Assembly (NCBI GenBank): GCA_023701285.1
Contig: JAMPXH010000037.1
Location: 1-32,659 of the forward strand
DNA: 32,659 bases
DNA from: Candidatus Didemnitutus sp.
GTDB lineage: Bacteria; Verrucomicrobiota; Verrucomicrobiia; Opitutales; Opitutaceae
Direction: 5' to 3'
Within the stretch, counting starts at the first letter, position 1. Each line of letters opens with the position of its first letter. Below the pieces are notes generated by a model. The model did no database searches. It was not told the origin of the DNA and saw only the letters and a list, made by a program, of their open reading frames with translations. This document shows, piece by piece, positions 1 through 19,560 of the stretch. Both the position numbers and the translations under genes were made by a program.

Positions 1-368
<368 letters not shown>

Positions 369-435
369 GAATCAGAGAGTCACGAATCCTAGTGATTCAT
401 GAACTACTAAACAACGACTTGCATCGCTGTTTATC

Positions 436-458
436 GACGCGAGAATGAATCTCGCGTC
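436..458 (-). promoter_or_regulatory. rRNA leader hairpin 1
   Basis: Perfect 8-bp inverted repeat GACGCGAG / CTCGCGTC with a 7-nt loop, about 70 nt upstream of the 16S 5' end. It would fold in the pre-rRNA leader. A role in 16S processing or folding is plausible from position only. Confidence 0.55.
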
Positions 459-466
459 TGGAATTT

Positions 467-487
467 TTGATTGGGGGTCCCAATCAA
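467..487 (-). promoter_or_regulatory. rRNA leader hairpin 2
   Basis: Perfect 9-bp inverted repeat TTGATTGGG / CCCAATCAA with a 3-nt loop, 8 bp beyond hairpin 1. It has no U-run after it on the minus strand, so it is more likely a leader structure than a terminator. Confidence 0.55.
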
Positions 488-500
488 TCGCACAAAGTAA

Positions 501-514
501 ATTTCAAAGAACCG
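501..514 (-). promoter_or_regulatory. boxA-like antitermination element
   Basis: The minus strand reads CGGTTCTTTGAAAT, resembling the boxA core (GCTCTTTGA) found in bacterial rRNA leaders, where it recruits NusB/NusE. It sits about 130 nt upstream of the 16S gene, a usual distance. The match is to the core only, so confidence is moderate. Confidence 0.45.
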
Positions 515-860
515 CTTCCTTTTTAGGGGAAAGGTTTCCAAGAAGACACTTGGATTTTCGCTCGTCAATACTTTTCCGTATTTTTTTGGAAAAATTTTGA
601 AGGAACGACTTCGATTTCTCGAAGCCCCTTTCGAACTCTACTTTGCCTTTCGGCGAAGCTGTTGTTTCAGAAGGGACGGCGAACCATGCAAGTGCGGTAA
701 AGTGATTCAAGTTTTTTTTGCTAAGAAAATCTTATTGTTTCGCAAGTGTTTTATAATAAATAGAATAGAAATCTTAAATTCGCCAATGGCGACACCGCCC
801 GGCAGGATGGAAATGCGCTTTGCGGTTAAACGGATTTTTGTATTAGGCTAGTCGATACAG

Positions 861-1394
861 AGAGAGCTTCGGCTGCCAGCAATTACACCACTCCCGCACA
901 TGCTACCAACCTCGCCCGCAGCGGCACCAGCAGGCATCACTAAGCGACCATAGTTCTTATTACCGCAGCCGCAGCTACGCGAAGCGCAATCCAGCGGAGT
1001 CTTTCAGAGCGGCACATGCAAGGTAGGTGCGAAGCAGGCGGCCTCGGAGGCATTACGAGGGAAGCGAATCTACTCCGCCACCTCCATACCTCAAGCCGCA
1101 GCAGCAGAGTGCGCAGATCCCCATCCCCGTCAGCCACAGACGCAAAGCCCCTGCTACGCCGTGCAGCCCAATTCGCGGAAACCTGCGCCATGCGCCGCCT
1201 GAGACGCACTCGACCGGTTTCCTCCGCGCGGGCTGCGCCACTTTGAATGTTGAACACGCACACCCTATGCTTGGTCGCGCAGCGGCAAGAGGCGATGCCT
1301 CTGCGTGCGCACGACACGCCAGCGTCGAATCCCACAAATTGATCGGCATAAGCGTTACTCCGACAAGCTGCCGTGATGTCACGCAACACCGTCC
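861..1394. other. Stretch without recognisable gene
   Basis: Both strands have open frames here (the longest is about 149 codons on the minus strand), but the predicted peptides overlap each other, are rich in Arg, Ser and Ala, and match no family I recognise. The block lies between the rRNA promoter region and a decayed transposase, so it may be more of the same mobile-element debris. No tRNA, repeat array or clear promoter was seen. Confidence 0.5.
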
Positions 1395-2370
1395 CGTTTT
1401 TTGCCAGAAGCAGAGCTGGGCCGCTTAGCGCAATGGGTTCGTCCCGGGGCTACGCAGCAGCACATGCTATTGCGCGCGGATCAGCCGTAGCGCGGCACTG
1501 GGGCAGTCCGACAGAGTGATAACCGCCGAGCTAGCGGTCCGACGCGAGACCGTCGCGCTGTGACGCGGAGAGAGCGGGAGGACAGTATCGCCTACGGTTG
1601 GGAGAATTGCGCCCCATCGAGGAGCAACCCGCGCTGAGGTGCAGCGCGGGTTTGCCGGCGGATAAAGACCATCCCAAAGACCACGTTGGCCGGGCGCGAT
1701 CCGTTGCAGCACGCGCACGCTCAAGCGCACACAAGGCGCAGCAAGAGCACAATTCGCAGGGTTGGCAGGCCAACGGGTTGACGCCGCGGCTGACCAATAC
1801 CTTCAGGCTCCCTCGCGATCAGTGCTACCTAGAGAAACTCACTGGTTTGGTCGGCGTTCATCTGCCCCCAGAACACCGTGGTCTTCTGCGTCGACGAGGA
1901 AGAGCCAGATTCAAGCTTTGGACCGCACCCGGCCTGCCGCTCAGGCTCACTCGCTGCGGCACGGCACCACCCTGCTCGCCGCACGGCAAGCCACCGAAGG
2001 TCTAGGCATCGACCAATGCTATCCACGCACCCGCACCGGGAGTTCCCGAGGTTCTTGCGCCGCCTCGCTGACGATTTCCCTAGCAACAATCCCCTCGTTA
2101 ATTACGCCGCGCGACCATCCCCGAGGGCTGCGCCCATCCCCAGTGCCGCACTTCATCCCCACCAGCGCCAGTTGCTGGACCTGATCGAACGCTAGTTCGC
2201 TGAACTCGAACAGCAGGCGGTGTCCCGTGCGGCGTTTTGCAGCGTTCCTGAATTGCAGCGGGGCGATCATCGCCCCCTTGGCTGCATGGAACACTCAACC
2301 CGCTCCCTTCGTCAGGACCGCCAGCGTCGAGCGTATCCTCAAAAAGGCAAACTGCGCCCGGAAGCGCTGC
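1395..2370 (+). pseudogene. Decayed IS630-family transposase
   Basis: Pieces of one IS630-type transposase can be read in order, but in alternating frames. An N-terminal part contains ELGRLAQWV and then a helix-turn-helix-like ITAELAVRRETVAL, ending in TGA at 1561 where the family usually has Trp. Next come NGLTPRLTNTFRLPRD and LVGVHLPPEH, then FCVDE with KSQIQALDRTRP in the next frame. RHGTTLLAA, QCYPRTR and HREFPRFLRRL follow, then PLVNYAA (compare VDNYATH) and FIPTSAS. After that is LIER-stop-FAEL, where TAG replaces the usual Trp, and finally APFVRTASVERILKK. There are at least five frame changes and two in-frame stops, so the gene is dead. The DDE residues of the first two motifs are partly recognisable. 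Boundaries are approximate and no terminal inverted repeats were identified. Confidence 0.8.
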
Positions 2371-2637
2371 AGACAAAGCAAACTAGGCCTCACTCGTCCC
2401 ATTCGATCGCGAGGTCATAGGTCATATGCCGAGCTAATTCCAGAGCACCAGACTGGCCTTTCCGCGTGTAAGTAGTGCCAAAGCACTGGGCACAGCCCCG
2501 CATTCGAAGCTTCTTTCAAGCGATTCTGTGGCTGTTTTGTTCCGATAAAGAAGCCGAACTTCTGGCATTTTACGTTTTTTAACAAATGGCCGAATGCGAC
2601 CGCCAAACAAAAGGTTGTAACAACCTGGAAACTACTT

Positions 2638-3195
2638 TTGAACGCCAAGCCTAACCCAGCAACTAACTCCCAGCTGACCAAACTCAACCAAGGCGAACCG
2701 TTGGACCTAAAGCAAATTAAGCTGATTGTGGACCTGATGAAGCGCTCGGACCTCACCGAGTTCGAAGTGGAAGAGGAAGGCTTCAAGATTAAGATCAAGC
2801 GCAACTCCGCCGAAGGAGCCGCCGCTCAAACGACGTTCTCCGCGCATCCGTTCCCGCCCGGCGTCACCGTTGAGCAACCCCGAAGCGCAGCCCCGGCCCC
2901 TGCTTTGCTGCCCGCCAGCCCGGCGAGCAACACTCCCGCTGGCGACGAAGTGGGCTACACCTACGTCAAATCTCCGATGGTAGGCACTTTCTACCGCTCT
3001 CCCTCACCCGACAGCCCCGCCTTCGTCGACGTCAACAGCAAGGTCGATGAAAAATCCGTCGTCTGCATCATCGAGGCCATGAAAATCATGAATGAGATTC
3101 AGGCCGAGGTGAAGGGCACCGTAGTCGAAGTCCTCGTCGAGAACGGTCAGCCGGTCGAATACGGCCAGCGACTCTACAAGGTCAAGGTGGCCTGA
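2638..3195 (+). CDS. accB: Acetyl-CoA carboxylase biotin carboxyl carrier protein
   Basis: This is the biotin carrier subunit of acetyl-CoA carboxylase, which makes malonyl-CoA for fatty-acid synthesis. The 185-residue product has an N-terminal [16 protein letters not shown] helix region, a Pro/Ala-rich linker (about residues 75-100) and a C-terminal biotinyl domain. The domain has [18 protein letters not shown] and the biotinylation motif EAMKIMNE, with the acceptor Lys near residue 149. The start is uncertain. TTG at 2638 has GGA 8 bp upstream. TTG at 2701 has AAGG 7 bp upstream and would give the canonical N-terminus MDLKQIK. No ATG start fits. A short palindrome AGGTTG-TAA-CAACCT lies at 2612-2626, just upstream. 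accC follows 58 bp downstream, the usual order. Confidence 0.95.
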
Positions 3196-3214
3196 CCACC
3201 GCTCAGATCACGCC

Positions 3215-3246
3215 GGCCGGGCAGAGCACTGTCCGGCCTATTTTTA
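3215..3246 (+). terminator. Intrinsic-terminator-like hairpin between accB and accC
   Basis: GGCCGGGCAG (3215-3224), loop AGCA, CTGTCCGGCC (3229-3238) form a 10-bp stem with a single G-U pair. TATTTTTA follows. It has every feature of an intrinsic terminator yet ends only 7 nt before the accC ATG, so it would partly uncouple accC from accB and could occlude the accC translation start. Confidence 0.75.
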
Positions 3247-3253
3247 TCCGCAC

Positions 3254-4615
3254 ATGATTCAAAAGGTCCTCATCGCCAATCGTGGAGAGATTGCGCTTCG
3301 CATCATCCGCGCCTGTCGCGAACTCGGCATCAAGACGCTGGCCGTCTACTCCGAAGCCGACGTCCAGTCCTTGCACGTCCAACTGGCTGACGAAGCCATC
3401 TGCATCGGCGGCCCCAAAAGCACCGACAGCTACCTGCGCGCCGATCGCATCATCAGCGCCGCGGAGATCGCCGATGTGGACGCCATCCACCCGGGCTACG
3501 GTTTTCTTTCCGAAAACGCCAAATTCGCCGAACAGTGCGAATCGTGTAACATCAAGTTCATCGGCCCCAAGTCCAAGAGCATCAGAATCATGGGCGATAA
3601 GGCCATCGCCAAGGACACCGTCCGTAAAGCCGGCGTGCCCACCGTTCCCGGATCGGACGGCCCGGTCGAATCCGAGGCGGAAGCCGTCAAAATCGCGCGC
3701 AAAATCGGCTACCCGGTCATCATCAAGGCTGTAGCTGGCGGCGGTGGCCGCGGCATGCGCATCGCGCACAACGACGTCTCCTTCGCCAAGGAATACCATG
3801 TCGCCCGCAACGAAGCCGAGAAGGCCTTCGGCAACGGCGCGGTTTACATCGAGAAATACATCCAGAATCCGCGCCACATCGAGTTCCAGATCTTGGCCGA
3901 CAGTCACGGCAAGGTGCTGCACTTGGGCGAGCGCGATTGCTCGGTCCAACGGCGGCATCAGAAGCTGATCGAGGAGGCACCCTCGCCCTTCCTGAACGCC
4001 GACCTGCGCAAGAAAATGGGCAAGGCCGCCATCCGTGCCGCCGAAGCGGCCGAATACCAGAACGCGGGCACCATCGAGTTCCTCGTCGATCCGAAAGGCA
4101 ATTACTACTTCATCGAGATGAACACGCGCATCCAAGTCGAGCACCCGGTGACCGAGGAAGTCACCGGAATCGACCTGATCAAGCAGCAGATCCGCGTGGC
4201 CAACGGCGAAAAACTGGATCTCGACCAGAGCGATATCACGTGGACCAAGCACGCCATCGAATGTCGCATCAACGCCGAGGATCCGGCGCGCAACTTCACC
4301 CCCTCCCCCGGCACGATCTCGCTTTACTACGCCCCGGGCGGCCACGGTGTCAGAGTGGACTCCCACGTTTACAGCGGCTACACCATCCCGCCGTATTACG
4401 ATTCGATGATCGGCAAGCTCATCTGCTACGGTTCGACTCGTAAGATTGCCCTCCAGCGCTCCTACCGAGCCCTCAGCGAATACCTCGTCCGCGGCATCAA
4501 GACCACCATCCCGCTGCACAAGGCCATCATGAGCGACCCGACCTTCATCGAAGGCAAGGCGACCACCGCCTACATGGAGGACTTCATGTCGCGCACGCCT
4601 CCGGATCTGTTCTGA
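3254..4615 (+). CDS. accC: Acetyl-CoA carboxylase, biotin carboxylase subunit
   Basis: This subunit carboxylates the biotin on AccB using ATP and bicarbonate, the first half-reaction of acetyl-CoA carboxylase in the cytoplasm. The 453-residue length is typical of the family (about 450). Visible features are the N-terminal [19 protein letters not shown], the Gly-rich ATP-grasp loop [11 protein letters not shown], the catalytic [18 protein letters not shown] segment, and the C-terminal biotin carboxylase domain starting around ECRINAEDP. The ATG at 3254 gives the standard N-terminus ([16 protein letters not shown]). No Shine-Dalgarno sequence is visible because the preceding bases are the U-run of a hairpin. 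No accA or accD is nearby. Confidence 0.98.
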
Positions 4616-4645
4616 GCCACGTCCCGCAATCCCTTCTCCATTTCG

Positions 4646-4671
4646 AGCCGCGCCAGCCCGCGCGGCTTTTT
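4646..4671 (+). terminator. Intrinsic terminator after accC
   Basis: AGCCGCGC, a 6-nt loop and GCGCGGCT form a perfect 8-bp stem, followed by TTTTT. It lies 30 bp after the accC stop and ends the acc operon before the next gene. Confidence 0.85.
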
Positions 4672-4831
4672 CGTGCTCAGCTCGGCTTGAGCACCCGATT
4701 CCAGCCGCGTCGCACATCACCGGGCCCGGACTCACCCGCCATCCGTGTTTGCGCCGGCACCACCTTCGCTCATCGTTCCGGACTGATGCGCCCCCGCTGC
4801 CATCGCAGCAGGGATTGAGCACCGTTTCTCC

Positions 4832-7800
4832 ATGAAGCTCTCCTCTGCCCCCCTGCTCGCCGCCCTCGCGGTCGTGATTGTGAGCGGTTGGCTGGCTTAC
4901 GCCCCGATTAGCGCGCCGGACTCGCTGCGCCGAGCCACGACACAGGCACAAGTGACCCCGCCCAGCCTTCCGCAGGCTCCCGCCCCTGTGCAACCCACTG
5001 TCGCAGCGGCTCCGCTCATCCGCCGCCCTGCAGCGGCCACGCTCGGGCAAGACGCACCGCTCACCTTGGCCCGCCTTCCCGAAAGCCAGCTTAAAGCCAT
5101 CCTGATCGGCCTCACGCCTGCCGCCCAAGCCCAAGCCCTGAACCAGCTCACGCGCCTGCAAGTGCCCGTCAGCGACCTTGCCTCCTTGCTGGCCGATTCC
5201 ACCGGTCAGCTCTACTACGCCTGCCACCTCACGCCCCCTATCGACGGCGGCCCAAACCCCACCCTCTTCGCCCAGGCAGCCGACGGCAGGCTTGTAGGCC
5301 CGCAGATCAAAGCCGTCAGTGCTGCCGGCGATTTCGCGGTTTCCGTGCCCAATTCCTCCCCACCCTTGCGGCAAAGCCGCCCCGGCTCCGCGAACGTCAT
5401 CTACCTCGACTTCAACGGCCACACCGTCACCGGCACCGCTTGGAACACCACCGCCGGCGCCCCGGCCGCCTACGTCTGCATCCCTTACGACACCGACGGC
5501 AATGCCAGCTCCTTCTCCCCCGAGGAACAAGCCGCCATCGTCAACATCTGGGCGCGCATCGCCGAGGATTACCGCTCCTTCGACGTCAACGTCACCACCG
5601 AGGCGCCCGCCGTTTTCAACAACCGCACGGCCCGCGTCCTTTTCACCCGCAAAACCGACGCCAACGGCATTCCCAACCCCAGCTCCGCCACCGCCAGCGG
5701 CGTCGCTTACGTCGGCGTCTTCGGCTCCGGCAGTTTCGCCGCCACCTACTCCGTCTCCTTCGTCTATCACGACGGCTACACCGACGGTTTTGTCGCCGCC
5801 GTCGCTTCCCACGAAGTCGGTCACAACCTCGGCCTCTCCCACGACGGCACCCTCAAGGCCGACGGCACCAAGGACGCCGAATACTACAGCGGCCACGGCA
5901 CTGGCGCCACCTCCTGGTCGCCGATCATGGGGTCCGGCTCCGGCCAGATCATCCAATGGTCCCGCGGCGAGTATTTTCGCGCCAACAACCCCCAGGACGA
6001 CCTCGCCATCATCACCTCGGCCCTCTCCGGGCGCGCCGACGACCACGCCAACAGCTCCCTCACGTCGACACCCCTCCTCGCCAACGGCCCCGCCGTCCAG
6101 CACCGCGGCATCATCACCAGCGCCGCCGATCAGGATTGGTTCTCCCTCCAGACCACGGGCGCAATCTCGCTTACCATCGCCCCGCACACCGCCCCCTTCA
6201 GCCTTAACCTCAGCGCCCTCGACGTGCGCGCCGAGCTCTACTCCTCCTCCGGCGTCCTCCTCGCCACCTCAGACCCGGCCCACAGCTCCGCCGCCACCTT
6301 CGACCTCTCGCCCGGCCCGGGCACCTACTATCTCCGCGTCGTCGGCGCCGCGATCGGCACCCCTCTGGCCGACCCGCCCTCCGGCTACACCAATTACGCC
6401 AGCATCGGCGAATACACCATCGCCGGCACCGTCACGCCCCTAGCGACGCCCGCGCTTCCCGCCATCGTCATCCACCCCGACAGCCAATCCATCTTCCCCG
6501 GCAATCCCGCCGCCTTCTCCGTCGTCGCCACCGGCAACCCCGCCACCAGCTACCAGTGGCAACGCTCCCTCGATTCCGGCGGCTCCTGGCAAAACCTCGC
6601 CGACAGCACCAGCCACACCGGCACCACCTCCGCCACCCTCACCGTCACCACCGTGGACGCCGCTATGAACGCCCAGCGCTTCCGCTGCGTCGTCACCAAT
6701 CCCTCCGGCAACGCCACCAGCTCCGCCGCCACGCTCACCGTCCAAACCCCGCCGCCGCCCGTTTTGCCAGCCTTCGACGGCCCACCCGAGCCCAGCTTCG
6801 GCCGCGGCCTGCCCGCCGGCACCAGCCAAAACCTCAACATCGGCCTCCTCGCTGGCACCGACCCTATCACCTACCAATGGCGCCTCAACGGCACCGATAT
6901 CCCCGGCGCCAACGGTCTCTATTACTTCGTCCGCAACTGGCAGGCCGCCGACGCCGGCACCTACACCGTCGTCGCCACCAACGCCCTCGGCAGCGTCGAA
7001 TCCGCGCCCTACACTCAATACCTCCAGCCCGAAGGCGGCTGGACTTGGCGCAACCCCCGCCCCACCGGCAACGGCACCACCCGCGCCGCCTTCCTCAACG
7101 GCCAATTCTTCGTCGGCGGCCTCCGCGGCACGCTCCTCGTTTCCCCCGACGGCCTGAACTGGACCAACCGCACCGTCCCCGCCTCGAACAACCTTTACGG
7201 TTTCCAGCAACTGAACGGCCTCTACGTCGTCCTCGGCAGCCTCGGCGCCGTATTCAGCTCCCCGGATGCCGTCATCTGGACCCCGCGCAACACCGGCACG
7301 CTCCATCAGGATTCCTCCAGCGGCCTCCAGTTCGTCGCCACTAACGGCTCACGCCTCATGGCGGTCGGTATCGGCGGCATCTTCACCACCACCACCGACG
7401 GCATCACCTGGACCTCCGGCACCGTCGGCACCGGCGACGATCTCAACGGCGTCGCCTTCGCCTTCGGCAAATTCCACGCCGTCTCCAACACCAACGGCCG
7501 CATCTACTCCACCACCGACGGCTCCACCTGGGCCTCCGTCGCCTCCTCCGCCGGCAGCCTGCGCTGCATCACGTTCGGCGCCGGCCGCCTCGTCGCCGGC
7601 GGCATCGGCGGCACCCTGACCACCTCGACCGACGGCCTCACGTGGACTCCCGTCTCCAGCGGAGTCTCCGCCTTCATCATCGGCCTCGACTACGTGAACG
7701 GCCGCTTCTTCGCCACCGGCACCGGCGGCACCATCCTCACTTCCACCGACGGCCTGCAATGGACCGCGACCAACACCAACGGCAACACCTCCAGCATCCA

Positions 7801-9631
7801 GAACGTCGCCTACGGCAACGGCCTCTATCTCGCTCCCGCGCAGAGCGGCACCACCGGCCGCGCCATCCTCACCTCCACCGACGGTTTCAACTGGACCCAG
7901 CGCATCACCGGCGCCGGCGCCTTCGGAGCCAACCTCCGCAGCGTCGCCGCCAACACGAGCGCCATCGTCACTGTCGGATTCAACGCCACCAGCAGCGTCA
8001 GCTCCTTTCTCCGCTCGACCGATGGCAACTCGTGGAACTTGAGCGCCAGCTTCAGCGGTCAGCTCAACGACATCGATTTCGGCAACACCCTCTTCCTCGC
8101 CGTCAACAACAGCGGCACGGCCTACACCTCGGCCAACGATGGCGCCACATGGAGCCAATACGCCCTCGCCTCCGGCGAAAACCTAAACGGCGTGCGCTAC
8201 GCCAACGGCCTCTGGATCGTTACCGGTGCCTCGGGCAACAGCGGACGCCTCCGCACTTCGCCCACCGGCCTGTCGGGCAGCTGGACGTCCAGAATCAGCA
8301 GCGGCAACGTGCTGAACAAATCCATCTACGGCGACAGTGCTTTCGTTGCCGTCGGCAACTCCGGCACGATCTGGCGCTCCACCACCGGCGCATCGTGGTC
8401 GGCCGCTTTCTCGGGCACCACGGCCAACCTCAACGACGTCGCCTACGGCTCCGGCCTCTTCGTCGCCGTCGGCGCCGGCGTCGTGCTCACGTCACCAGAC
8501 GGCCTCACGTGGACCAACCGCTCCTTCACGCCCGACACGCTCACCAGTGTCATTTACTCCGGCAGCCACTTCATCGCCACCACCGCGCTCAGCGCCTCGG
8601 GCAATGGCAGCACTTACTACGTTTCATCCGACGGCATTCAGTGGACCGGTCGTTTCACCGGTGCGTTCGACCTCCTCAACGACCTCGTCGCCTTCAACAA
8701 CCAAGTCTACGGCGTCGGCGACAACTCCATCATCCTTTCCGCCGGCGCGCCCGTGCTCAGCACGTCCGGCTCCGTCGTCGCTTCCTCCGGCGCGAGCACC
8801 ACACTCGCGGCCACGGCCGCCGCCTCACCGGTCCCCGTCGCCTACCAATGGCACCGCAACGGCGTGCCCGTGCCCGGCGCCACGCAACTCCGCTTGGCAT
8901 TCTCACCTGTGCACGCCGCCGACTCCGGCAACTACACCCTCGTCGCCACCAACGCCTTCGGCTCCACCACCAGTTCGCCCACCGTCCTCAGCGTCACACC
9001 GGTCGCACAGACGATCGACTTCCCCACGCTCCCCGATCTGCCCTTCGCGCGCACGCCGCTGACGCTCGCAGCCAGTGCCACCTCCGGCCTGCCCGTCAAC
9101 TTCACCTCCGTCTCCGGTCCGGCCACGCTCTCCGGCAACGCCCTCACGCTCACCGGCACCGGCCTCGTGACCGTGCGCGCCACCCAGCCCGGCAACGCCG
9201 ACTTCACTGCCGCCCCGCCGGTCGAACGCACTTTCGCCGTGTTGCCCAACTTCGCCGCCTGGCAAAACGCCCGCTTCAGCGCCGCCCAACTCGCCCAACC
9301 CGCCACCATCGCGCCCAACGCCGTCCTCACCGCCGACGGGCTGGCCAATCTCCTCAAATACGCCCTCGGACTCGATCCGCAGATCGCCGCCACCTCCGGC
9401 TTGCCGGTGATCGGTTCCGAGGACGACGCCTGGACCTTCACCTACACCCGCCCGGAGTCCGTCACCGACGTGATCTACTCGGTGGAGGTTTCCGAGGACC
9501 TGACGTTCTGGACCTCCGCCGGCGTCGAGCATGCCCTGCTCTCCACTGGCGGCGGCACACAGACATGGCGGGCGCGTTACACGCCCGCCGGCACCGGCCG
9601 CCTCTTCTTCCGGCTGAAAGTCAGCCTCTAG
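4832..9631 (+). CDS. Giant secreted metzincin-type protease with Ig and propeller repeats
   Basis: The 1,599-residue product begins with a signal peptide or membrane anchor (about residues 1-28). Around residues 185-400 is a zinc-protease domain with HEVGHNLGLSH (His327, His331, His337) and a likely Met-turn in PIMGSG (Met366), the metzincin signature seen in reprolysin-like enzymes. A pre-peptidase C-terminal-type domain follows (about 420-540, DQDWFSL to GTYYLRVVG). Then come two Ig-like domains (about 542-735) and about 13 units of roughly 40-45 residues with the pattern S-x-DG-x-x-W (about 740-1300), probably forming beta-propellers. A third Ig-like domain (about 1307-1390) precedes an SGLPVNF-type domain, and a C-terminal module contains DGLANLLKYALGLDP. 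The last module resembles C-terminal regions common in large exported Verrucomicrobiota proteins. The substrate is unknown; a role outside the cell or on its surface is inferred. The C-terminus overlaps the convergent prmA by 11 bp. Confidence 0.85.
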   Translation: MKLSSAPLLAALAVVIVSGWLAYAPISAPDSLRRATTQAQVTPPSLPQAPAPVQPTVAAAPLIRRPAAATLGQDAPLTLARLPESQLKAILIGLTPAAQAQALNQLTRLQVPVSDLASLLADSTGQLYYACHLTPPIDGGPNPTLFAQAADGRLVGPQIKAVSAAGDFAVSVPNSSPPLRQSRPGSANVIYLDFNGHTVTGTAWNTTAGAPAAYVCIPYDTDGNASSFSPEEQAAIVNIWARIAEDYRSFDVNVTTEAPAVFNNRTARVLFTRKTDANGIPNPSSATASGVAYVGVFGSGSFAATYSVSFVYHDGYTDGFVAAVASHEVGHNLGLSHDGTLKADGTKDAEYYSGHGTGATSWSPIMGSGSGQIIQWSRGEYFRANNPQDDLAIITSALSGRADDHANSSLTSTPLLANGPAVQHRGIITSAADQDWFSLQTTGAISLTIAPHTAPFSLNLSALDVRAELYSSSGVLLATSDPAHSSAATFDLSPGPGTYYLRVVGAAIGTPLADPPSGYTNYASIGEYTIAGTVTPLATPALPAIVIHPDSQSIFPGNPAAFSVVATGNPATSYQWQRSLDSGGSWQNLADSTSHTGTTSATLTVTTVDAAMNAQRFRCVVTNPSGNATSSAATLTVQTPPPPVLPAFDGPPEPSFGRGLPAGTSQNLNIGLLAGTDPITYQWRLNGTDIPGANGLYYFVRNWQAADAGTYTVVATNALGSVESAPYTQYLQPEGGWTWRNPRPTGNGTTRAAFLNGQFFVGGLRGTLLVSPDGLNWTNRTVPASNNLYGFQQLNGLYVVLGSLGAVFSSPDAVIWTPRNTGTLHQDSSSGLQFVATNGSRLMAVGIGGIFTTTTDGITWTSGTVGTGDDLNGVAFAFGKFHAVSNTNGRIYSTTDGSTWASVASSAGSLRCITFGAGRLVAGGIGGTLTTSTDGLTWTPVSSGVSAFIIGLDYVNGRFFATGTGGTILTSTDGLQWTATNTNGNTSSIQNVAYGNGLYLAPAQSGTTGRAILTSTDGFNWTQRITGAGAFGANLRSVAANTSAIVTVGFNATSSVSSFLRSTDGNSWNLSASFSGQLNDIDFGNTLFLAVNNSGTAYTSANDGATWSQYALASGENLNGVRYANGLWIVTGASGNSGRLRTSPTGLSGSWTSRISSGNVLNKSIYGDSAFVAVGNSGTIWRSTTGASWSAAFSGTTANLNDVAYGSGLFVAVGAGVVLTSPDGLTWTNRSFTPDTLTSVIYSGSHFIATTALSASGNGSTYYVSSDGIQWTGRFTGAFDLLNDLVAFNNQVYGVGDNSIILSAGAPVLSTSGSVVASSGASTTLAATAAASPVPVAYQWHRNGVPVPGATQLRLAFSPVHAADSGNYTLVATNAFGSTTSSPTVLSVTPVAQTIDFPTLPDLPFARTPLTLAASATSGLPVNFTSVSGPATLSGNALTLTGTGLVTVRATQPGNADFTAAPPVERTFAVLPNFAAWQNARFSAAQLAQPATIAPNAVLTADGLANLLKYALGLDPQIAATSGLPVIGSEDDAWTFTYTRPESVTDVIYSVEVSEDLTFWTSAGVEHALLSTGGGTQTWRARYTPAGTGRLFFRLKVSL

Positions 9632-10493
9632 TCAGCGCGACGTCGCTCCACTCGCCCATCACCCGCGTCTCCACGAGCCATCCGGGCGCGGCAGCAGCAA
9701 ACACGTCGCGCACCTGCGCCAGCTCGCGCTCGAGGATGCCGCTCAACACCAGCTGACCACCGGGAGCGACCGCGCCCAGCAACTCGCCGGTGAAATGCAC
9801 AAGCACGTCCGCCTGGATGTTCGCGAGCACGACTTCGGCCTGCCGGCCAGCCAAGCCGCTGACCAGATCGCCGACGAAGAAATCCACGCGCCCGGCCAAC
9901 CCGTTCAACGTCGCATTCTCCTCGCTCACGCGGATCGCCTCGGGGTCGTTGTCGAAGCCCGCCACTTGCGCGAAACCCAGCAACGCCGCCGACAGCGCCA
10001 GGATGCCCGAGCCGCAGCCCGCGTCGATCACGCGCCCCGCCGTGCCCTTGGCCGACGCGAAGCTCACCAGCCGCTCCGCCACTAGCCGTGTCGTCTCGTG
10101 GTTGCCCGTGCCGAAGGCCATGCCCGGATCGAGCCACAGCACCTTCGCCCCCGCTGGTGCCGCAAAAGTCTCGCGCTCCCACACCGGCACCCAGTGCAAC
10201 GGGCCGAAGGCCGAAGCCTTGAAGTGCGCCTTGTAGCTGTCCTTCCACTCGGCATCGGCCAACTCCCGCAGTTCGGGCGCGCCGATGCACCACGCGGCGT
10301 TGAGCGTCACCGCAAAATCGACCCAACTCATCTCCGCCTCCGCGCGGGATTCGAAGTAGCCCGTGATCCAGGCCCGCACCGACGGCTTGTCCTCGAGCAC
10401 CATCAGGTGCTGTTCCTCGCGCTCTGCGAGCAGTTCCTCGATCGCCGGCACGGCGACCGGCGCGATCTCGATTTTGAATTCGTGGATGGGCAT
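9621..10493 (-). CDS. prmA: Ribosomal protein L11 methyltransferase
   Basis: PrmA uses S-adenosylmethionine to methylate ribosomal protein L11. The product (290 residues from the chosen ATG) has an N-terminal recognition domain, then WLDPGMAFGTGNHETTR, the SAM-binding VIDAGCGSGILAL, an acidic ribose-binding position in GFDNDPEA, and the catalytic-region VLANIQADVL (family NI/NPP-like motif). I chose the ATG at 10493, giving MPIHEFKIEI. An in-frame TTG at 10505 would instead overlap the purN stop (TTGA). purN lies only 8 bp upstream, so the two are probably co-transcribed. The 3' end overlaps the convergent giant protease gene by 11 bp. Confidence 0.95.
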   Translation of the reverse strand: MPIHEFKIEIAPVAVPAIEELLAEREEQHLMVLEDKPSVRAWITGYFESRAEAEMSWVDFAVTLNAAWCIGAPELRELADAEWKDSYKAHFKASAFGPLHWVPVWERETFAAPAGAKVLWLDPGMAFGTGNHETTRLVAERLVSFASAKGTAGRVIDAGCGSGILALSAALLGFAQVAGFDNDPEAIRVSEENATLNGLAGRVDFFVGDLVSGLAGRQAEVVLANIQADVLVHFTGELLGAVAPGGQLVLSGILERELAQVRDVFAAAAPGWLVETRVMGEWSDVALTRG

Positions 10494-10501
10494 GGGAAAA
10501 C

Positions 10502-11080
10502 TCAACCGCGCGGCACGCTCAACTCCGCGATCACTCGGGGCAGCAGTTCATGCTCCGCCGCGTGCACTTTTTGCGCGAGCGACTCCAGCGTGTCGCCCGG
10601 CTCCAGCGGCACGCTCGCCTGCGCGATGATCTCGCCCGCGTCGACCTCGAGCGTCACGTAGTGCACCGTGCACCCGGTCTCCTTTACCCCGGCGCGGAAG
10701 GCCTGGCCGATGCCGTCCAACCCCGGGAAGGCCGGCAACAAGCTCGGGTGCAAATTGATGATCTTGCCCGCGAACGCCGTCAGGAACCCCGGTTTCAACA
10801 CCCGCATGAAACCCGCCAGCACCACGAGATCCGGTTCGCACGCGCGCACCGCCGCGATGAACCGCTCCTCGCCCGCCCCTTCGAGCTTCGTCTTGAACGG
10901 CGCCGGATCGACGAATGCCGCCGGCACGCCAAAACGCGGCCCCAACTCCAGCAGCCGCGCCTCGGGCTTGTCCGCGAACAGGTGCACCACCCGGGCGCGC
11001 CCGAGCCGGCCCTCCTGCTGGGCTTGCAAGATCGCCTCGGCATTGCTGCCCCGGCCGGAACCAAGGATCACGACACGCAT
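10502..11080 (-). CDS. purN: Phosphoribosylglycinamide formyltransferase
   Basis: PurN transfers a formyl group from 10-formyltetrahydrofolate to GAR in purine synthesis. The sequence shows the N-terminal VVILGSGRGSNAEAI phosphate-binding loop, the catalytic NLHPSLLPAFPG (Asn and His), and the Asp in VDAGEII, a complete catalytic set. The length (about 192 residues) is normal for the short bacterial form. The ATG at 11080 gives MRVVILGSG; an in-frame GTG at 11095 is an alternative. One oddity is LDGIGQAF, where the family usually has a shorter FPG-to-GVK connection. It is followed directly by prmA. Confidence 0.95.
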   Translation of the reverse strand: MRVVILGSGRGSNAEAILQAQQEGRLGRARVVHLFADKPEARLLELGPRFGVPAAFVDPAPFKTKLEGAGEERFIAAVRACEPDLVVLAGFMRVLKPGFLTAFAGKIINLHPSLLPAFPGLDGIGQAFRAGVKETGCTVHYVTLEVDAGEIIAQASVPLEPGDTLESLAQKVHAAEHELLPRVIAELSVPRG

Positions 11081-11223
11081 GCCGCGCCAGCTCACACGGC
11101 CCGGCGGCCAATGTAAATGCTCCGTTGCGCAGGTTCACCGCTGCTTCCTGACCGATAAGCCACCCTGCATTCCCACCGGGCAACTTTGACTTATCCGCCC
11201 TCCGGTTCAGGCTGTCCGTCCCG

Positions 11224-11973
11224 ATGCCGCCACCCACCGCGCCCTCCGCCGCGACCCTGTCCTCCTCCGGTCAACCGATCTTCCACGTGCGCGGTCTCAC
11301 CAAGATCTACGGCACGGGCGAGACACAGGTGCGCGCCCTCTCCGGCGTCGATCTCGACCTCGGCGCCGGCGAACTCGTCGTGTTGCTCGGCCCCTCCGGC
11401 AGCGGCAAGACCACTCTCCTCAACCAGCTCGGCGGACTCGACCTGCCCACCTCCGGCGCGCTGCGCTACCGCGACATCGAGCTTACGCACGCCACCGAGG
11501 AGCAGCTCACGCTCTACCGCCGCCGGTCCGTCGGATTCATCTTCCAGTTCTACAATCTCATCCCGAGCCTCACCGCGCGCGAGAACGTCGCCCTCATCAC
11601 CGAGATCGCCGAGCACCCGCTCGCGCCCGAGGTCGCGCTTGAGATGGTCGGGCTCGGCGCGCGCATGGATCACTTTCCCGCCCAGCTCTCCGGCGGCGAA
11701 CAACAACGCGTCGCCATCGCCCGCGCCATCGCCAAGCGCCCCGCCGTGCTCCTCTGCGACGAGCCCACCGGCGCCCTCGACGTGAAGACCGGCATCGTCG
11801 TCCTCGAAGCCATCGAGCGCGTGAACCGCGATCTCGGCACCCTCACCGTCATCATCACCCACAACGCCGTCATGGCCGACATGGCCGACCGCGTGATTCA
11901 TTTCATGGACGGCCACGTCGTGCAGGAGCGCCGCAACGCCACCCGCGTCGCACCCTCCACGCTGCGCTGGTAG
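11224..11973 (+). CDS. ABC transporter ATP-binding protein (LolD/MacB/DevA type)
   Basis: This is the ATPase of a three-gene exporter. Motifs are complete: Walker [10 protein letters not shown] (about residues 56-64), the [19 protein letters not shown]-loop region typical of LolD/MacB ATPases, signature [15 protein letters not shown], Walker [12 protein letters not shown], and a switch His in IITHN. The N-terminus begins with a 20-residue Pro/Ser/Ala-rich lead. The permease gene starts 12 bp after its stop and the adaptor gene follows, so the three very probably form one operon. The substrate cannot be read from the sequence; related systems move lipoproteins, glycolipids, peptides or macrolides. 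Confidence 0.93.
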
Positions 11974-11985
11974 CCGCCGCGCTCC

Positions 11986-14352
11986 ATGCTCTCCCACCTC
12001 GACCGCAAGCTGCTGCGCGACCTGCGCCGCCTCAAAGGCCAGGCCACTGCGGTCACGCTCGTGATGGCCTGCGGCCTCGCCATGCTCATCATGGCGCGCA
12101 GCCTCATCAGCTCGCTCGAGACCGCCAGCGCGGACTATTACCAGACGAACCGCTTCGCCGAGATCTTCGTCGCGCTCAAACGCGCCCCCAACGACGTCGC
12201 CGCCCGCATCGCGGCGCTGCCGGGCGTCGCCACCGTCGAGACCAACATCGCCGTGCAAGTCACGCTCGACCTGCCCGGACTCGACGAGCCGGCGAGCGGG
12301 CTCGTGCGCTCCGTGCCCGACCACGGCGAGGCGCAGCTCAATCGCCTCTTCCTCCGCCGCGGCCGCTGGCTGTCGCCCGGCGCGCGCGGCGAGGTGCTCG
12401 TCGGCGAGGCCTTCGCCGCAGCCAACCGCCTGCAGCCGGGCGACCGGCTCACCCTGCTGCTCAACGGCCGGCGGCAGGAATTCGCCATCGCCGGCATCGT
12501 GCTCTCGCCAGAATACGTCTTCGAATCGCGCCCCGGCGCCGCCCTGCCCGACAACCGCACCTACGGCATTTTCTGGATGCCTTACAAGGAGGTCGCCACC
12601 GCCTGGGATCTCTACGGCGCGTTCAACTTCGTCTCGGTCACCCTCGAGCCCGGCGCCGGACGCGAGCCCGTCATCGCCGCGCTCGACGCCCTGCTGTTGC
12701 CCTACGGCGGCCTTGGTGCCTACGGCCGCAAGGACCACCCGTCGCACATCCGCGTCACCGACGAGATCCGCGTGCTGGCGATCCTCTCGATCGGTTTCCC
12801 CGCCGTCTTTCTCAGTGTGGCGGCGTTCATGACGAACTCCGTGCTCACGCGCCTGCTCGCCCTGCAGCGCGAACAGATCGCCATCCTCAAGGCCTTCGGC
12901 TTCACCAACCGCCAGATCGTAACGCACTACCTGAAATTCGCCGCCGTCATCGTCGGCGGCGGCACCACGCTCGGGGCGCTGGGAGGCATCGCCCTCGGCA
13001 CCCGGTTGGTGGACATGTATACGCTCTTCTTCCGCTTCCCGGAGCTGAGCTTCCGGCTTGATCGCACCGCGCTGTTCGTCGCCTTCGCCGTCGGCCTCGG
13101 TGCGGTCGTGGCGGGCGTCTTCCACGCCGTGCGCCGGGCGGCGCGCTTGCCACCGGCGGAAGCCATGCGCCCCGAGCCGCCCACGCATTACCGCGCGTCG
13201 CTGCTCGAACGCTGGGGACTCGGCCGCCTGTTCAGCCACTCGTTCCGCATCGCTGTGCGCAACATCGAGCGCCGTCCCGTGCAGGCGCTCTTCACCGTCG
13301 CCGGCCTGGCGCTCGCCACTGCGCTCCTCATCCTGCCCAACACCTTCAAGGCGGGCATCGCCGAGGTCCTCGATTTCCAGTGGGACGTCGTGCAACGCCA
13401 GGATCTCAACCTCGGCTTCGCCGAGCCCTCCGGCCTCCGCATCCAGCACGAGCTGGCGCAGCTCCCCGGCGTCGTGCACGTCGAGCCGGCGCGCAACGCC
13501 GCCGTGCGCATCCACTTCAACGGCCGCGACCGCCAGATCGGCCTGCGCAGCCTCGAGCCGGACGGCACGCACAGCCGCGCGGTCGATCACCACGGCCGGG
13601 AAATCCTGCCGCCGGAGGAGGGCCTCATCATCTCCGCCAAGCTGGCCGAGGTGCTCGGCGCCCGGCCCGGCGACCTGCTCGTCGTCGAGGCGCTCGAAGG
13701 GCGCCGCCCCGTGCGCGCCGTGCCGCTGGTCGCGCTGGCGGAGGACTTCACCGGCATCGCCGCCTACATGGACCGGCGCGCCATCAACCGCTTCCTCGGC
13801 GAAGGCGATGTCATCACCGGAGCCAGCATCACGCTCGACCGCGCGCAACGCGCGGACTTCCTGCGCGCGTTGAAGGAAATCCCGCGGGTGAGCTGGATCG
13901 CGATCAAGGAGACCATGCGGCAGAGTTTCCGCGAGACAACCGCCCAGAGCATGGGGCTGATTCAGACGATCTACCTCACCTTCGCCGTCATCGTCGCCTT
14001 CGGCGTCATCTACAACAACGCCCGCATCTCGCTCGCCGAGCGCGCGCGCGAACTGGCAACCCTGCGCGTGATCGGCCTGACCCAGCGCGAGGTCGGCGCC
14101 ATCATCGTCATCGAGCTGACCATCCTCGCCCTCCTCGCCTTGCCGCTCGGGCTTTTCCTCGGCACCGGGCTGGCCGCGGGCATCATCCAATCCGTGAACA
14201 CCGAGACCGTGCGCCTGCCCCTCGTGTTCACCGCCTACACCTACACCTTCGCCGTCATCGTCGTGCTGATCGCGTCGGCCTTCTCCGCGTGGGTCGTGCT
14301 CCGCCAACTCAAGCAGCTCGATCTCATCGCCGCGCTGAAGGCGCCCGAATAG
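11986..14352 (+). CDS. FtsX/MacB-type ABC transporter permease, duplicated
   Basis: The 788-residue integral membrane protein has about eight predicted membrane segments: near residues 23-42, 262-290, 318-342, 361-381, 434-451, 658-677, 708-734 and 754-773. It has two copies of a large extracytoplasmic MacB-like domain (about 45-255 and 455-650). Each is followed or preceded by FtsX-type helices, including LQREQIAILKAFGFTNRQI and AERARELATLRVIGLTQRE, the typical cytoplasmic coupling helices. This is the fused, tandem form of a type VII (mechanotransmitting) permease. It lies between its ATPase and adaptor genes. The energised step would be extrusion of a substrate from the outer leaflet or periplasm. 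Confidence 0.92.
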   Translation: MLSHLDRKLLRDLRRLKGQATAVTLVMACGLAMLIMARSLISSLETASADYYQTNRFAEIFVALKRAPNDVAARIAALPGVATVETNIAVQVTLDLPGLDEPASGLVRSVPDHGEAQLNRLFLRRGRWLSPGARGEVLVGEAFAAANRLQPGDRLTLLLNGRRQEFAIAGIVLSPEYVFESRPGAALPDNRTYGIFWMPYKEVATAWDLYGAFNFVSVTLEPGAGREPVIAALDALLLPYGGLGAYGRKDHPSHIRVTDEIRVLAILSIGFPAVFLSVAAFMTNSVLTRLLALQREQIAILKAFGFTNRQIVTHYLKFAAVIVGGGTTLGALGGIALGTRLVDMYTLFFRFPELSFRLDRTALFVAFAVGLGAVVAGVFHAVRRAARLPPAEAMRPEPPTHYRASLLERWGLGRLFSHSFRIAVRNIERRPVQALFTVAGLALATALLILPNTFKAGIAEVLDFQWDVVQRQDLNLGFAEPSGLRIQHELAQLPGVVHVEPARNAAVRIHFNGRDRQIGLRSLEPDGTHSRAVDHHGREILPPEEGLIISAKLAEVLGARPGDLLVVEALEGRRPVRAVPLVALAEDFTGIAAYMDRRAINRFLGEGDVITGASITLDRAQRADFLRALKEIPRVSWIAIKETMRQSFRETTAQSMGLIQTIYLTFAVIVAFGVIYNNARISLAERARELATLRVIGLTQREVGAIIVIELTILALLALPLGLFLGTGLAAGIIQSVNTETVRLPLVFTAYTYTFAVIVVLIASAFSAWVVLRQLKQLDLIAALKAPE

Positions 14353-14378
14353 TCGCTTCTTCACCGTTCCATTCCTCC

Positions 14379-15572
14379 ATGAACCCGTCCGTCCCTCGTC
14401 CCTCCGGCTCCACTCCGCTGCGCCGCGCCCTGCCCTATGTGATCGGCGCCGTCCTGCTCGCGTTGCTCGTGCTCGGCCTGCGCCCGCGACCGACGGCGGT
14501 CGAGACCGCGCTGGTCGCGATCGGCCCGTTGCGCGCCACCGTCAGCGAAGAAGGCAAGACCCGCATCCGCGACCGCTACGTGGTCTCGGCCCCGGTCACG
14601 GGCCAAGTGCGACGCATCCCGTTCAAACCGGGCGCGGAGATTGTCGCGCACGAAACGGTCGTCGCCGTCATCGATCCGCTGCCCGCCTCGCCGCTCGATG
14701 CGCGCAACCAGGCGCTGGCCGAGGCGCGGCGCGATTCCGCGGTCGCAGCTCTGGAAAAAAGCCGCACCGCGCACGAGTTGGCGCGCCGCGAGCTCGCGCG
14801 CATCGAGCAGATGTTCGCCGCCGCCACCGTGTCGCCGCAGGAGCGTGAGACCGCCCAGTTGCGCGAGACCGCGGCCGCCCGCGAGGTCATCGCCGCCGAG
14901 GGCGCGCTGCGTCAGGTCGAGGCGGAACTGATCGGCTTCGTCCCGGCGGGCAGCCGGGCCGCCACGCCGGTCGAAGTCCGCGCGCCCGTGCCCGGGCGGG
15001 TGCTCAAGGTTTTCCAAGAAAGCACCCGCGCTGTCACAGCCGGCACGCCGCTGCTGGAGATCGGCGACCCCGACGACCTCGAGGTCGTCGTCGAGATGCT
15101 TTCGCGCGACGCGGCCGCGATCCCCGCCGGCGCGGAGGTGGAACTCGATCAATGGGGCGGCCCGCGCCCGTTGCAGGGTCGGGTGCGGCTGGTCGAGCCG
15201 GCCGCATTCACGAAGATCTCCGCCCTCGGCGTCGAGGAGCAGCGGGTCAACGTCGTTGTCGATATCGTGACGCCGCCGACGGAGCGCCGGAGCTTGGGGG
15301 ATAATTTCCGCGTCGAGGCCCGCGTCATCCTGTGGGCGGATGCGCAGGCGTTGAAGGTTCCCTCCGCGGGCGTGTTCCGCCGCAGCGACGGCTGGGCGGC
15401 CTACGTAGTGCGCGACGGTCGGGCCGCTTTGACGCCGGTGCAAATCGGACGCGGCTCCGGCGTCGAGGCGCAGGTGCTCGGCGGCCTCAACGCTGGCGAC
15501 GAAGTGATTCTTTACCCGGGCGACCGCGTGGCAGACGGCCAGCGCGTGCGCCCGATCCAGGTGAAACGCTGA
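14379..15572 (+). CDS. HlyD/MacA-type periplasmic adaptor subunit
   Basis: This is the membrane-fusion protein of the exporter. The 397-residue product has one N-terminal membrane segment (about residues 18-36) and then a biotinyl-lipoyl half (VSAPVTGQVRRIPFKPGAEI). A long Ala/Glu/Arg-rich helical hairpin (about 105-190, probable coiled coil) follows. The second lipoyl half is VRAPVPGRVLKVFQES, and beta-barrel and membrane-proximal domains end in GGLNAGDEVILYPGDRV. The ATG at 14379 is 26 bp after the permease stop; the same frame is open much further upstream, but that part is a shadow of the permease gene. No outer-membrane TolC-type channel is encoded nearby. Confidence 0.92.
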   Translation: MNPSVPRPSGSTPLRRALPYVIGAVLLALLVLGLRPRPTAVETALVAIGPLRATVSEEGKTRIRDRYVVSAPVTGQVRRIPFKPGAEIVAHETVVAVIDPLPASPLDARNQALAEARRDSAVAALEKSRTAHELARRELARIEQMFAAATVSPQERETAQLRETAAAREVIAAEGALRQVEAELIGFVPAGSRAATPVEVRAPVPGRVLKVFQESTRAVTAGTPLLEIGDPDDLEVVVEMLSRDAAAIPAGAEVELDQWGGPRPLQGRVRLVEPAAFTKISALGVEEQRVNVVVDIVTPPTERRSLGDNFRVEARVILWADAQALKVPSAGVFRRSDGWAAYVVRDGRAALTPVQIGRGSGVEAQVLGGLNAGDEVILYPGDRVADGQRVRPIQVKR

Positions 15573-15624
15573 AGACGCGCCCCGCCGCGAATTTGTTCTG
15601 GCTGGCGCCCGCCCGGGCGTTGAT

Positions 15625-16050
15625 ATGGCAGCGATGAATCTCGCCGACGCCCGCAGCCTCGTGTCCACCGCCCTCGCGCGCATGAACGGCGCCTACGGCC
15701 AGACCGTGTTCGACGAGTGGGTGCTCGTCTCGATCCGCGCCGATCGCGGCGCCATCCTCGCCTACGAGGGCCCGCGCGCGGAGACCTACAAGAAGCAATT
15801 CACCTTCGACATCGCCTCGATGCTCCGCGAGCTCGCCGGCCAGAAACTCAGCGTGGGGGATTTCGCCTTCGCCGCCGACGCGCACGGCACACACTACGAT
15901 GGCTGCATGCGGCTCGGCGAGAGCAGCTACCTTTTCTGCAACCACACCCAGCGCACCATGCTGGAAATCCGGCAGAGCGCCACCTGGCTCGCCGCACAGA
16001 AGGCATGGGTCGAACTCGGCGCCAAGTTCGCCGGCGATCCGCTGGAGTGA
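15625..16050 (+). CDS. Conserved-looking hypothetical protein
   Basis: The 141-residue soluble protein has no signal peptide or membrane segment. I do not recognise the family. Visible stretches are FDEWVLVSIRADRGAILAYEGPR, FTFDIASMLRELAGQ and SSYLFCNHTQRTMLEIRQSA. The alternating hydrophobic pattern suggests a compact alpha/beta fold. It starts at ATG 15625 (a second ATG at 15634 is possible), 52 bp after the exporter adaptor, so it may be the fourth gene of that operon. Codon use matches its neighbours. Its stop is 22 bp from that of a convergent gene. Confidence 0.75.
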   Translation: MAAMNLADARSLVSTALARMNGAYGQTVFDEWVLVSIRADRGAILAYEGPRAETYKKQFTFDIASMLRELAGQKLSVGDFAFAADAHGTHYDGCMRLGESSYLFCNHTQRTMLEIRQSATWLAAQKAWVELGAKFAGDPLE

Positions 16051-16056
16051 GCCGTC

Positions 16057-16071
16057 GCTCGCCGCGCGAGC
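16057..16071. terminator. Small symmetrical hairpin between convergent genes
   Basis: GCTCGC-CGC-GCGAGC forms a perfect 6-bp stem in the 22-bp gap between two convergent genes. There is no U-run, so termination here is only a guess from position. Confidence 0.35.
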
Positions 16072-16072
16072 C

Positions 16073-17083
16073 TCAGCCCGTCCAACCGGCCCACACGAAC
16101 CACGCGTAGGCCGCGAGGAACACCGCACCCGCCCAGCGCGGCAGCCCGCCCAGCGCGAGCAGCAGCAACGCGTGCACCGCGACCGCCCCGAGCAGCAGCA
16201 GCAGCCCGGTGACGAAGAATGGCGGCACCGCCACCGGCGCCAGCACCGCGAGCAGGCCGACGCAGAGCGGGATGCAGATGTGTCCGTCGCCGACTTGCGA
16301 GCTGTAGACCACCTCCGCGCGCCGTCGCGCCGCCCAGTAGAGTGCGAGCAGCGCGTTCGGCAGCACCATGAGCCAGCCGCTCAACCAGCCGAGATTCGCC
16401 GCGCTGAGGAAACCGTCCTTCTGCGCCGTCAGCCAGCTCACCAGCCAGTCGATGCTCTCGTAGAGCGCCCACGCACACGCCAGCACCAGCAGCAGATCGA
16501 CGTAGAACATCGCGCCGAACGAGATCCGCTGCTGCACGTTGCGCTTCAGCACGTCGAAGACCTGGAACGTCTGCCAGAAAAGGAACAGCCCGATGAGCAG
16601 CAGGCCGTCGGCCCGCGAAAGCTGTCCGTCGTCGGCCAGCAGCCACGTCGCCCCGGTGAAGAACAACACCGCCGCGAGCGTGAGCATGAGCGAGAGCCGG
16701 TTGATCTGCGCGCCGACGAGCGAGTTCGCCGCCTTCTTGCCGCCCTTGCCGCCGCGCCCGGCCGCCGCGTTGGGCAGCACCTCCAGCCCCCACAGCACCG
16801 CAGGCAAGCCGAGCAGGAGCGTGAGGTTGCTGACGTTGTTCACGAGGGCGTTGGTCAGCACCTCCTGCGGCGGTCCGCCGCGCTGCACGACGATGAAGAC
16901 GAAAAGCAGGTTCCCCAGCCCCGAGCAGTAGGGCATCACGATCGTCCCGAGCGCCGTGCCCTCGAGTCCGTGGTCCAGCATCGCCTCCAGCCGCCAGACC
17001 ATCAGCAGCGATACGCCGAGGAAGACCGCGAGGTAGGTCCACGGAGCGTCCAAGCCGAGGGATTCGATGAACGGAGGCAGCAC
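16073..17083 (-). CDS. CaCA-superfamily sodium/calcium exchanger-like membrane protein
   Basis: The 336-residue protein is almost entirely hydrophobic, with about 10 membrane segments and a Gly/Lys-rich cytoplasmic loop in the middle (about residues 108-120). Its two halves each contain an alpha-repeat-like segment: GTALGTIVMPYCSGLGNLL followed by NALVNNVSNLTLLLG, and SGWLMVLPNALLALYWAARR followed by VGDGHICIPLCVGL. This is the cation-exchanger architecture. The Glu normally found in each repeat (PEL context) appears replaced by Asn (about Asn58 and Asn243), so the transported ion is open. The start is GTG at 17083; no better start is visible. It lies 57 bp downstream of an exported-protein gene. 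Confidence 0.7.
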   Translation of the reverse strand: MLPPFIESLGLDAPWTYLAVFLGVSLLMVWRLEAMLDHGLEGTALGTIVMPYCSGLGNLLFVFIVVQRGGPPQEVLTNALVNNVSNLTLLLGLPAVLWGLEVLPNAAAGRGGKGGKKAANSLVGAQINRLSLMLTLAAVLFFTGATWLLADDGQLSRADGLLLIGLFLFWQTFQVFDVLKRNVQQRISFGAMFYVDLLLVLACAWALYESIDWLVSWLTAQKDGFLSAANLGWLSGWLMVLPNALLALYWAARRRAEVVYSSQVGDGHICIPLCVGLLAVLAPVAVPPFFVTGLLLLLGAVAVHALLLLALGGLPRWAGAVFLAAYAWFVWAGWTG

Positions 17084-17088
17084 GACCG

Positions 17089-17120
17089 GATTGAGGGGGC
17101 GCGCGACACGCCGTTCAATC
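17089..17120 (-). other. Intergenic stem-loop
   Basis: GATTGA (17089-17094) pairs with TCAATC (17115-17120), and inner GGCG (17098-17101) pairs with CGCC (17109-17112). It lies just upstream of the exchanger's GTG and has no U-run. It could affect transcript stability or translation of the exchanger. Its function is not known. Confidence 0.35.
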
Positions 17121-17140
17121 CCGAAGCCGGGCGGAGGCGC

Positions 17141-17740: not shown

Positions 17741-17792
17741 GCCCCCATTGAAAACGGACCGCCCGCCGGCGCCACTCGTTTTTTTGCCGCGG

Positions 17793-19439: not shown

Positions 19440-19560
19440 GCCGCACGAGCGTGGCGGATCCCGCCGGCTTGGCAACGCTCCGCGTCACAACTCCATCGTG
19501 CCGTCCCGCCACGCCAAAAACCACTCGCAAAACGCGCCCACCCGTGCACGTTTCGACCCC

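Follow-up and report, generated by a model that had tools for sequence, protein, structure and literature searches.

AccB, the biotin carboxyl carrier protein (BCCP), and AccC, the biotin carboxylase, stand at the start of fatty acid synthesis. The structure that we describe here between their genes resembles several kinds of known RNA elements. Intrinsic (Rho-independent) terminators combine a G-C-rich stem and a short loop with a U-rich tail past a coding gene; the accB-accC element shares this build, which is also that of gene ends in its genus, but it is located inside an operon and its U-run mostly begins a few nucleotides away from the stem. Among internal terminators of operons, the ioTTSs of Methanococcus maripaludis, as described in the available portion of the source (PMC10450193), stop transcription between co-transcribed genes and lower the downstream gene, as proposed below for accC. 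They concern an archaeal polymerase and were experimentally mapped, whereas the evidence for the accB-accC element comes from sequence, yet the latter is kept across genera. The protective intercistronic hairpins of programmed mRNA decay in Escherichia coli are likewise stable conserved hairpins past an upstream gene; according to the excerpted text of PMC5927463, however, they have no U-tract, and hairpins that do carry one were set aside in that study as terminators. Among the literature matches listed we found no transcript-end map for the phylum; the two papers matching Verrucomicrobi* together with Term-seq concerned, by title, Na+ riboswitches and Halomonas terminators, and none of the matches listed dealt, by title or abstract start, with accBC termination in Verrucomicrobia. 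The element is real and conserved, of a known kind, and lies at a place without a description among the literature matches listed.

The window, by which we mean the whole analysed stretch of 32,659 nt, carries accB and accC in tandem with a gap of 58 nt (3196-3253) between the accB end at 3195 and the accC ATG at 3254 (Table 1). The arms of the hairpin are GGCCGGGCAG (3215-3224) and CTGTCCGGCC (3229-3238), separated by the loop AGCA and followed by TATTTTTATCC; hairpin and tail together span 3215-3247. With eight G-C pairs, one A-U and one G-U, the 10-bp stem and its 4-nt loop lie within the range of intrinsic terminators, which have short loops and G-C-rich stems of roughly 5-15 bp, and the tail holds 7 T in 10 nt. 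Sequence and fold confirmed these elements as the initial annotation had described them. Its placement 7 nt before the accC start is correct for the end of the U-rich tail (6-8 nt before), but not for the stem, which ends 15 nt before the ATG. Folding of 3195-3262 gave -21.4 kcal/mol (z -2.6), with 3 of 200 shuffles equally good; in the gap of the window, the sense strand folded less well than the antisense strand. The accB frame is without ATG and its start is a TTG, either that at 2638 or possibly that at 2701, the latter being residue 22, where the TIGR00531/BCCP match begins.

Table 1. Coordinates of accB, accC and the elements between and behind them, as positions in the window.
Feature	Position	Strand	Details and basis
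accB (biotin carboxyl carrier protein)	2638..3195	+	ORF; NCBIfam TIGR00531, 168.3 bits, above cut-off
Leader, accB stop codon to stem	3196..3214	+	19 nt; not conserved (sequence, gap alignment)
Hairpin: 10-bp stem, one G-U, AGCA loop	3215..3238	+	Fold, pair counts in 28 gaps, covariance model
U-rich tail TATTTTTAT	3239..3247	+	First U-run 2 nt past last G-C pair (sequence, tail statistics)
accC (biotin carboxylase), ATG, no Shine-Dalgarno (SD) motif	3254..4615	+	ORF; NCBIfam TIGR00514, 732.7 bits, above cut-off; SD test
Hairpin with U-run directly after, 3' of accC; probable operon end	4645..4671	+	Fold, sequence

A loose scan of positions 1-20000 detected 15 terminator-like sites compared with 12.9 ± 3.4 in shuffled sequence and is thus by itself no proof; the accB-accC hairpin had the most stem pairs among the 15. 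When 10 or more pairs, 8 or more G-C and 5 or more T of 8 were required (strict rule), two sites were found in the 32.7-kb window, accB-accC and 20262-20284, vs. 9 in 100 shuffled windows, and shuffling of the gap produced a strict-rule site in 0 of 20,000 cases. The accB-accC hairpin is neither chance nor dispersed sequence. The second strong hairpin, GGCCGGTCG-TTT-CGACCGGCC followed by TTATTTTTT (20262-20292), is located 50 nt past a predicted ORF ending at 20211 and also at the end of a predicted minus-strand ORF; this position at the ends of two predicted ORFs makes an ordinary gene-end terminator the probable reading. A narrower pattern that joins the base of the stem to the tail, GCCGGN4-14CCGGCYTNATTTT, occurred once in each of two genomes: in that of the window (G000) its place was 20264-20290 instead of accB-accC, and in the genus member G007 it was accB-accC. 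Rfam searches over the window returned 16S rRNA only and no family at the hairpin site.

A dispersed repeat or an uptake-sequence terminator was rejected on the following distribution of the motif. The pattern CCGGRCAGN3-6YTGTCCGG gave 11 matches at 10 places in 9 of the 13 genomes of the genus; nine places were directly before accC and one (G007:C1) was elsewhere, with no T-run behind it. Across the family the pattern matched in 32 of 252 genomes, and 30 loci were inspected: 13 were located before accC, all in genera g1 (that of the window) and g61, and 17 elsewhere (L167, L171-L181, L183 and L188-L191), none of the latter being followed by five T in a row. A palindromic DNA operator is also less likely, because the commonest pair at one stem position is G-U (16 of 28 rows), which breaks the symmetry of DNA and keeps an RNA helix. 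In other genera, accB-accC gaps are filled by long palindromes, with ACCGCTAA...TTAGCGGT and CCACTAAT...ATTAGTGG as their types, that recur in different branches (L015, L072, L083, L094, L095, L098, L103, L123 and L124); these may be mobile or repeat-derived. One palindrome type from such gaps, AACCRCTAA...TTAGYGGTT with spacers of 15-45 nt, was found at one place (both strands) in G000 and at none in five other genomes.

An accC query gave matches in 56 of 57 genomes, many of them solely via distant ATP-grasp proteins, and a close accC was present in 11 of the 13 genomes of the window's genus. With 80 further accC loci taken from named records, a rapidly built tree (SH-aLRT, no bootstrap) with 101 distinct accC genes placed the window within a clade of 21 rows (SH-aLRT 96) with gaps of 51-64 nt. 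Outside this clade 73 gaps measured 61-140 nt, three 230-387 nt and one 18 nt, and three were unreadable. Among 18 loci from other families of the order, 13 of the 17 measured accB-accC gaps were shorter than 30 nt and 16 of the 17 folded weaker than -7 kcal/mol. A version of the hairpin was found in 20 of the 21 clade rows and was weak in L078; L097 did not fit the motif and was included in the alignment and pair counts that follow. In genus g61, where accC was found in 16 of 21 genomes, gaps were obtained for 14 of the 16 loci and the remaining two were inspected separately; seven of the g61 gaps were new and extended the alignment to 28 rows. In these, 94.3% of the 280 stem cells were paired, a level reached by 0 of 500 shuffles (a count that gives no probability, since the rows are related), compared with 25-53% for slid control versions of the stem. 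Changes on both sides of a pair were seen in 6 of the 10 stem pairs (13 cells), as expected for a stem that is made and kept in RNA. The sense strand folded better than the antisense strand in 14 of the 21 clade gaps, the window being among the other seven (weak evidence), and in only 15 of 73 gaps in the rest of the family. In a comparison that covered 94 of the 101 loci (in the other seven the gap was missing, below 40 nt or above 160 nt), z was below -2 in 18 of 21 clade gaps and in 34 of 73 gaps in the rest of the family, vs. 6 of 146 stretches inside accC. The same was true for 15 of 47 other same-strand gaps of G007; structured same-strand gaps are thus common.

The tail follows the stem closely. 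In 25 of the 28 rows the 10 nt that follow the stem hold at least 5 T; a run of at least 4 T was present in 22 rows and absent in the other six. The centre of the longest T-run varied less in its distance from the stem (s.d. 1.7 nt) than from the accC ATG (3.1 nt), indicating that tail and stem form one unit. For comparison with gene ends we used 400 kb sampled from G007, with genes called by a home-made hexamer caller (coding fraction 0.765, probably too low), and a terminator rule of 8 pairs, 5 G-C and 5 T of 8. Of the 108 same-strand gene ends 16 carried a site of this kind, as did 9 of the 70 convergent ends but none of the 86 divergent 5' regions, which shows that the rule picks 3' ends. 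At accB-accC, 13 of the 21 clade gaps held such a site; once the added rows and nine bases of accC were taken in, the count was 19 of 28. They also occurred, mostly with abutting U-runs, in 5 of the 47 G007 same-strand gaps that measure 40-130 nt; accBC is thus not alone in having them, although some of these five may be operon ends. Over 25 gene ends the median distance from the last G-C pair to the first TTT was 0 nt (16 of them had 2 nt or less), compared with 4 nt in 19 accB-accC hairpins (5 with 2 nt or less). The rank test (p 0.008) overstates this difference, as the rows are related, and the comparison depends on the home-made gene caller. The U-run of the accB-accC element is thus usually set back by 3-5 nt, with the 2 nt of the window at the short end. 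As the early U's matter most for intrinsic termination, we read this set-back as a probable built-in leak, which would fit the single accC found in G000 (one accC among three query matches, the other match listed being 26% identical), because an essential gene past a full stop would need its own promoter.

To delimit the range of the element, we built a covariance model from the aligned gap rows and ran it with strict filters on 252 family genomes, scoring 20 candidates per genome. One strong match per genome (E at most 1.1e-6) was obtained in 27 of the 252, all in three genera (g1, 11 of 13 genomes; g56, 2; g61, 14 of 21), and 26 of the 27, all except that of G153, were located directly before accC by coordinates. 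These matches are partly circular, since the model was built from many of the matched sequences. Weak matches (E 0.0016-0.0084) were seen in five further genomes. Two of the 16 accC-bearing g61 genomes were without a covariance match: the hairpin is absent in G163, and only the 3' arm and the tail are readable in G160. Conservation in relatives, which the initial annotation had proposed as a check, therefore extends over three genera but not over the rest of the family, where only one of 77 accB-accC gaps fits the terminator rule; to judge from these comparisons, the terminator form is a trait of the three genera and not of the family.

The accC start has no SD motif, and the initial annotation had ascribed this to the U-run occupying its place. 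The cause proved to be wrong: among 98 accC genes from Opitutaceae none has an SD-like 4-mer at -17 to -4, whether there is a U-run or not. Called genes of G007, whose starts are rough, had one in 25 of 258 cases, compared with 93 of 1000 random 14-mers, and the available part of PMC10783764 names Verrucomicrobia bacterium IMCC26134 (L135 in our accC tree) among SD-scarce organisms. Taken together, these results indicate that SD absence is the rule here. In the clade (19 of its 21 rows), codons 2-14 of accC had the lowest synonymous variation of 99 windows, which is what one would expect if an SD-less start needs to stay unstructured. In the branch of L103, L123, L135, L137 and L138, which includes IMCC26134, accC starts with GTG.

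In our view the hairpin is best explained as a conserved leaky intrinsic terminator in the accBC operon that would lower accC relative to accB, and we put the probability of this reading at about 0.58. A polymerase that has passed accB would produce the hairpin and its U-rich tail over the stretch 20-52 nt past the accB stop codon. Since 19 nt separate this codon from the stem, the stem should stay clear of a ribosome that terminates on accB. Some polymerases would leave, giving rise to accB-only mRNAs with a stable 3' end, and the remaining ones would read on into accC, whose translation would begin at a U-rich, SD-less start of its own. The distance of the U-run from the stem should weaken termination. 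The expected outcome is less accC than accB mRNA, and less of the second subunit than of the first. The initial annotation had suggested an intrinsic-terminator hairpin inside the operon that could set a fixed ratio of carrier to carboxylase; conservation, covariation, the stem-anchored U-run and the likeness to gene ends argue for both proposals. Several observations count against a leaky terminator: the rarity of the terminator form in the rest of the family, the missing hairpin of G163 and the misfit of L097, the six rows that have no run of 4 T, the short set-back in the window itself and the better fold of its antisense strand. If true, the conserved weak terminator would be a transcriptional way to balance AccB against AccC. 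The available text of PMC3896788 reports that unbalanced AccB/AccC expression disturbs E. coli. On the ratio the sources differ, and this argument is therefore mixed: PMC3896788 gives two AccC with four AccB and yet states that the subunits have to be equimolar in synthesis, while a figure legend of PMC4495372 gives two AccC and two AccB. More tentatively, and with considerable doubt, one may suppose that SD-scarce bacteria set subunit ratios of operons transcriptionally, by conserved terminators weakened by a U-run 3-5 nt from the stem, because tuning by SD strength is hardly possible in them; accB-accC would then be the first worked case, with BCCP in excess of biotin carboxylase. The sites in 5 of the 47 same-strand gaps of G007 speak for this idea, with the reservations that some may be operon ends and that most have abutting U-runs. 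The set-back U-run would be a simple signature to seek in other operons of such bacteria.

The main rival of a leaky terminator is a block to mRNA decay, in which the hairpin would halt 3'-5' exonucleases after a cut in the downstream mRNA, so that the accB part would live longer with the same effect on the ratio. In E. coli, as far as the excerpt of PMC5927463 goes, stabilised upstream operon segments end just past stable hairpins in 26 of 34 cases, and the gaps elsewhere in the family, often structured without fitting the terminator rule, would suit such a role. The E. coli hairpins are defined there as stable hairpins not followed by a U-tract, however, whereas here a U-rich tail accompanies the stem in nearly all rows and is kept near it, and structured same-strand gaps are common in G007 anyway; we regard a decay block as unlikely, although it deserves to be taken seriously. 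A full terminator would make accB a one-gene unit and, with a single accC found in G000, would need a separate accC promoter, situated in the accB end or the gap, with a transcription start possibly almost at the ATG. The AT-rich tail TATTTTTAT could, to judge from its sequence, accommodate the -10 box of a leaderless accC mRNA, and two thirds of the aligned gaps (19 of 28) fit the gene-end rule. The T-run tracks the stem and not the ATG, though, and synonymous variation in the accB end is not lowered, so that a complete stop appears less probable still. A scan of 2500-4900 for sigma-70-like promoters gave none, including before accB, and is therefore uninformative.

Another reading assigns no importance to termination: hairpin and U-run would keep the SD-less accC start open and supply ribosome protein S1 with a U-rich site. 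It would agree with the lack of SD motifs in all 98 accC genes, with the low synonymous variation of the first accC codons and with the stem ending at a median of 16 nt before the ATG. Against it stand the anchoring of the T-run to the stem rather than to the ATG and the lack of U-richness at the starts of 183 G007 genes called with an ATG, and we consider an aid to translation improbable. A regulated attenuator, also raised by the initial annotation, would switch read-through with fatty-acid demand or biotin state by an antiterminator fold or a bound protein. Regulation as such would not be strange, since the available part of PMC3896788 describes E. coli accBC as autoregulated through AccB, and a protein may bind the conserved stem. 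But no antiterminator fold was detected in folds starting at 2900 to 3180 (up to ~296 nt of accB in front), the stem pair probabilities being 0.98-1.0, and neither the gap alignment nor Rfam revealed a conserved sensor or leader upstream of the stem, where the leader is short (19 nt) and unconserved. Nor was extra synonymous constraint present at the accB end, where synonymous sites varied about as much as the average for accC, or more, in a scan of 19 of the 21 clade rows (two with partly N accB were left out). As neither a competing upstream fold nor lowered synonymous variation at the accB end was seen, the switchable attenuator is not supported and seems very improbable, and a partial stop that stays constant is in our view more likely than a switch.

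The contig opens within a minus-strand 16S rRNA gene (window 1-368), ~2.2 kb before accB, and no evident gene was seen between the two (369-2637). In six relatives (G001, G003, G004, G006, G008 and G010) the accC start is likewise located 1.7-2.5 kb from the contig start, which suggests that accBC may adjoin an rRNA operon across the genus.
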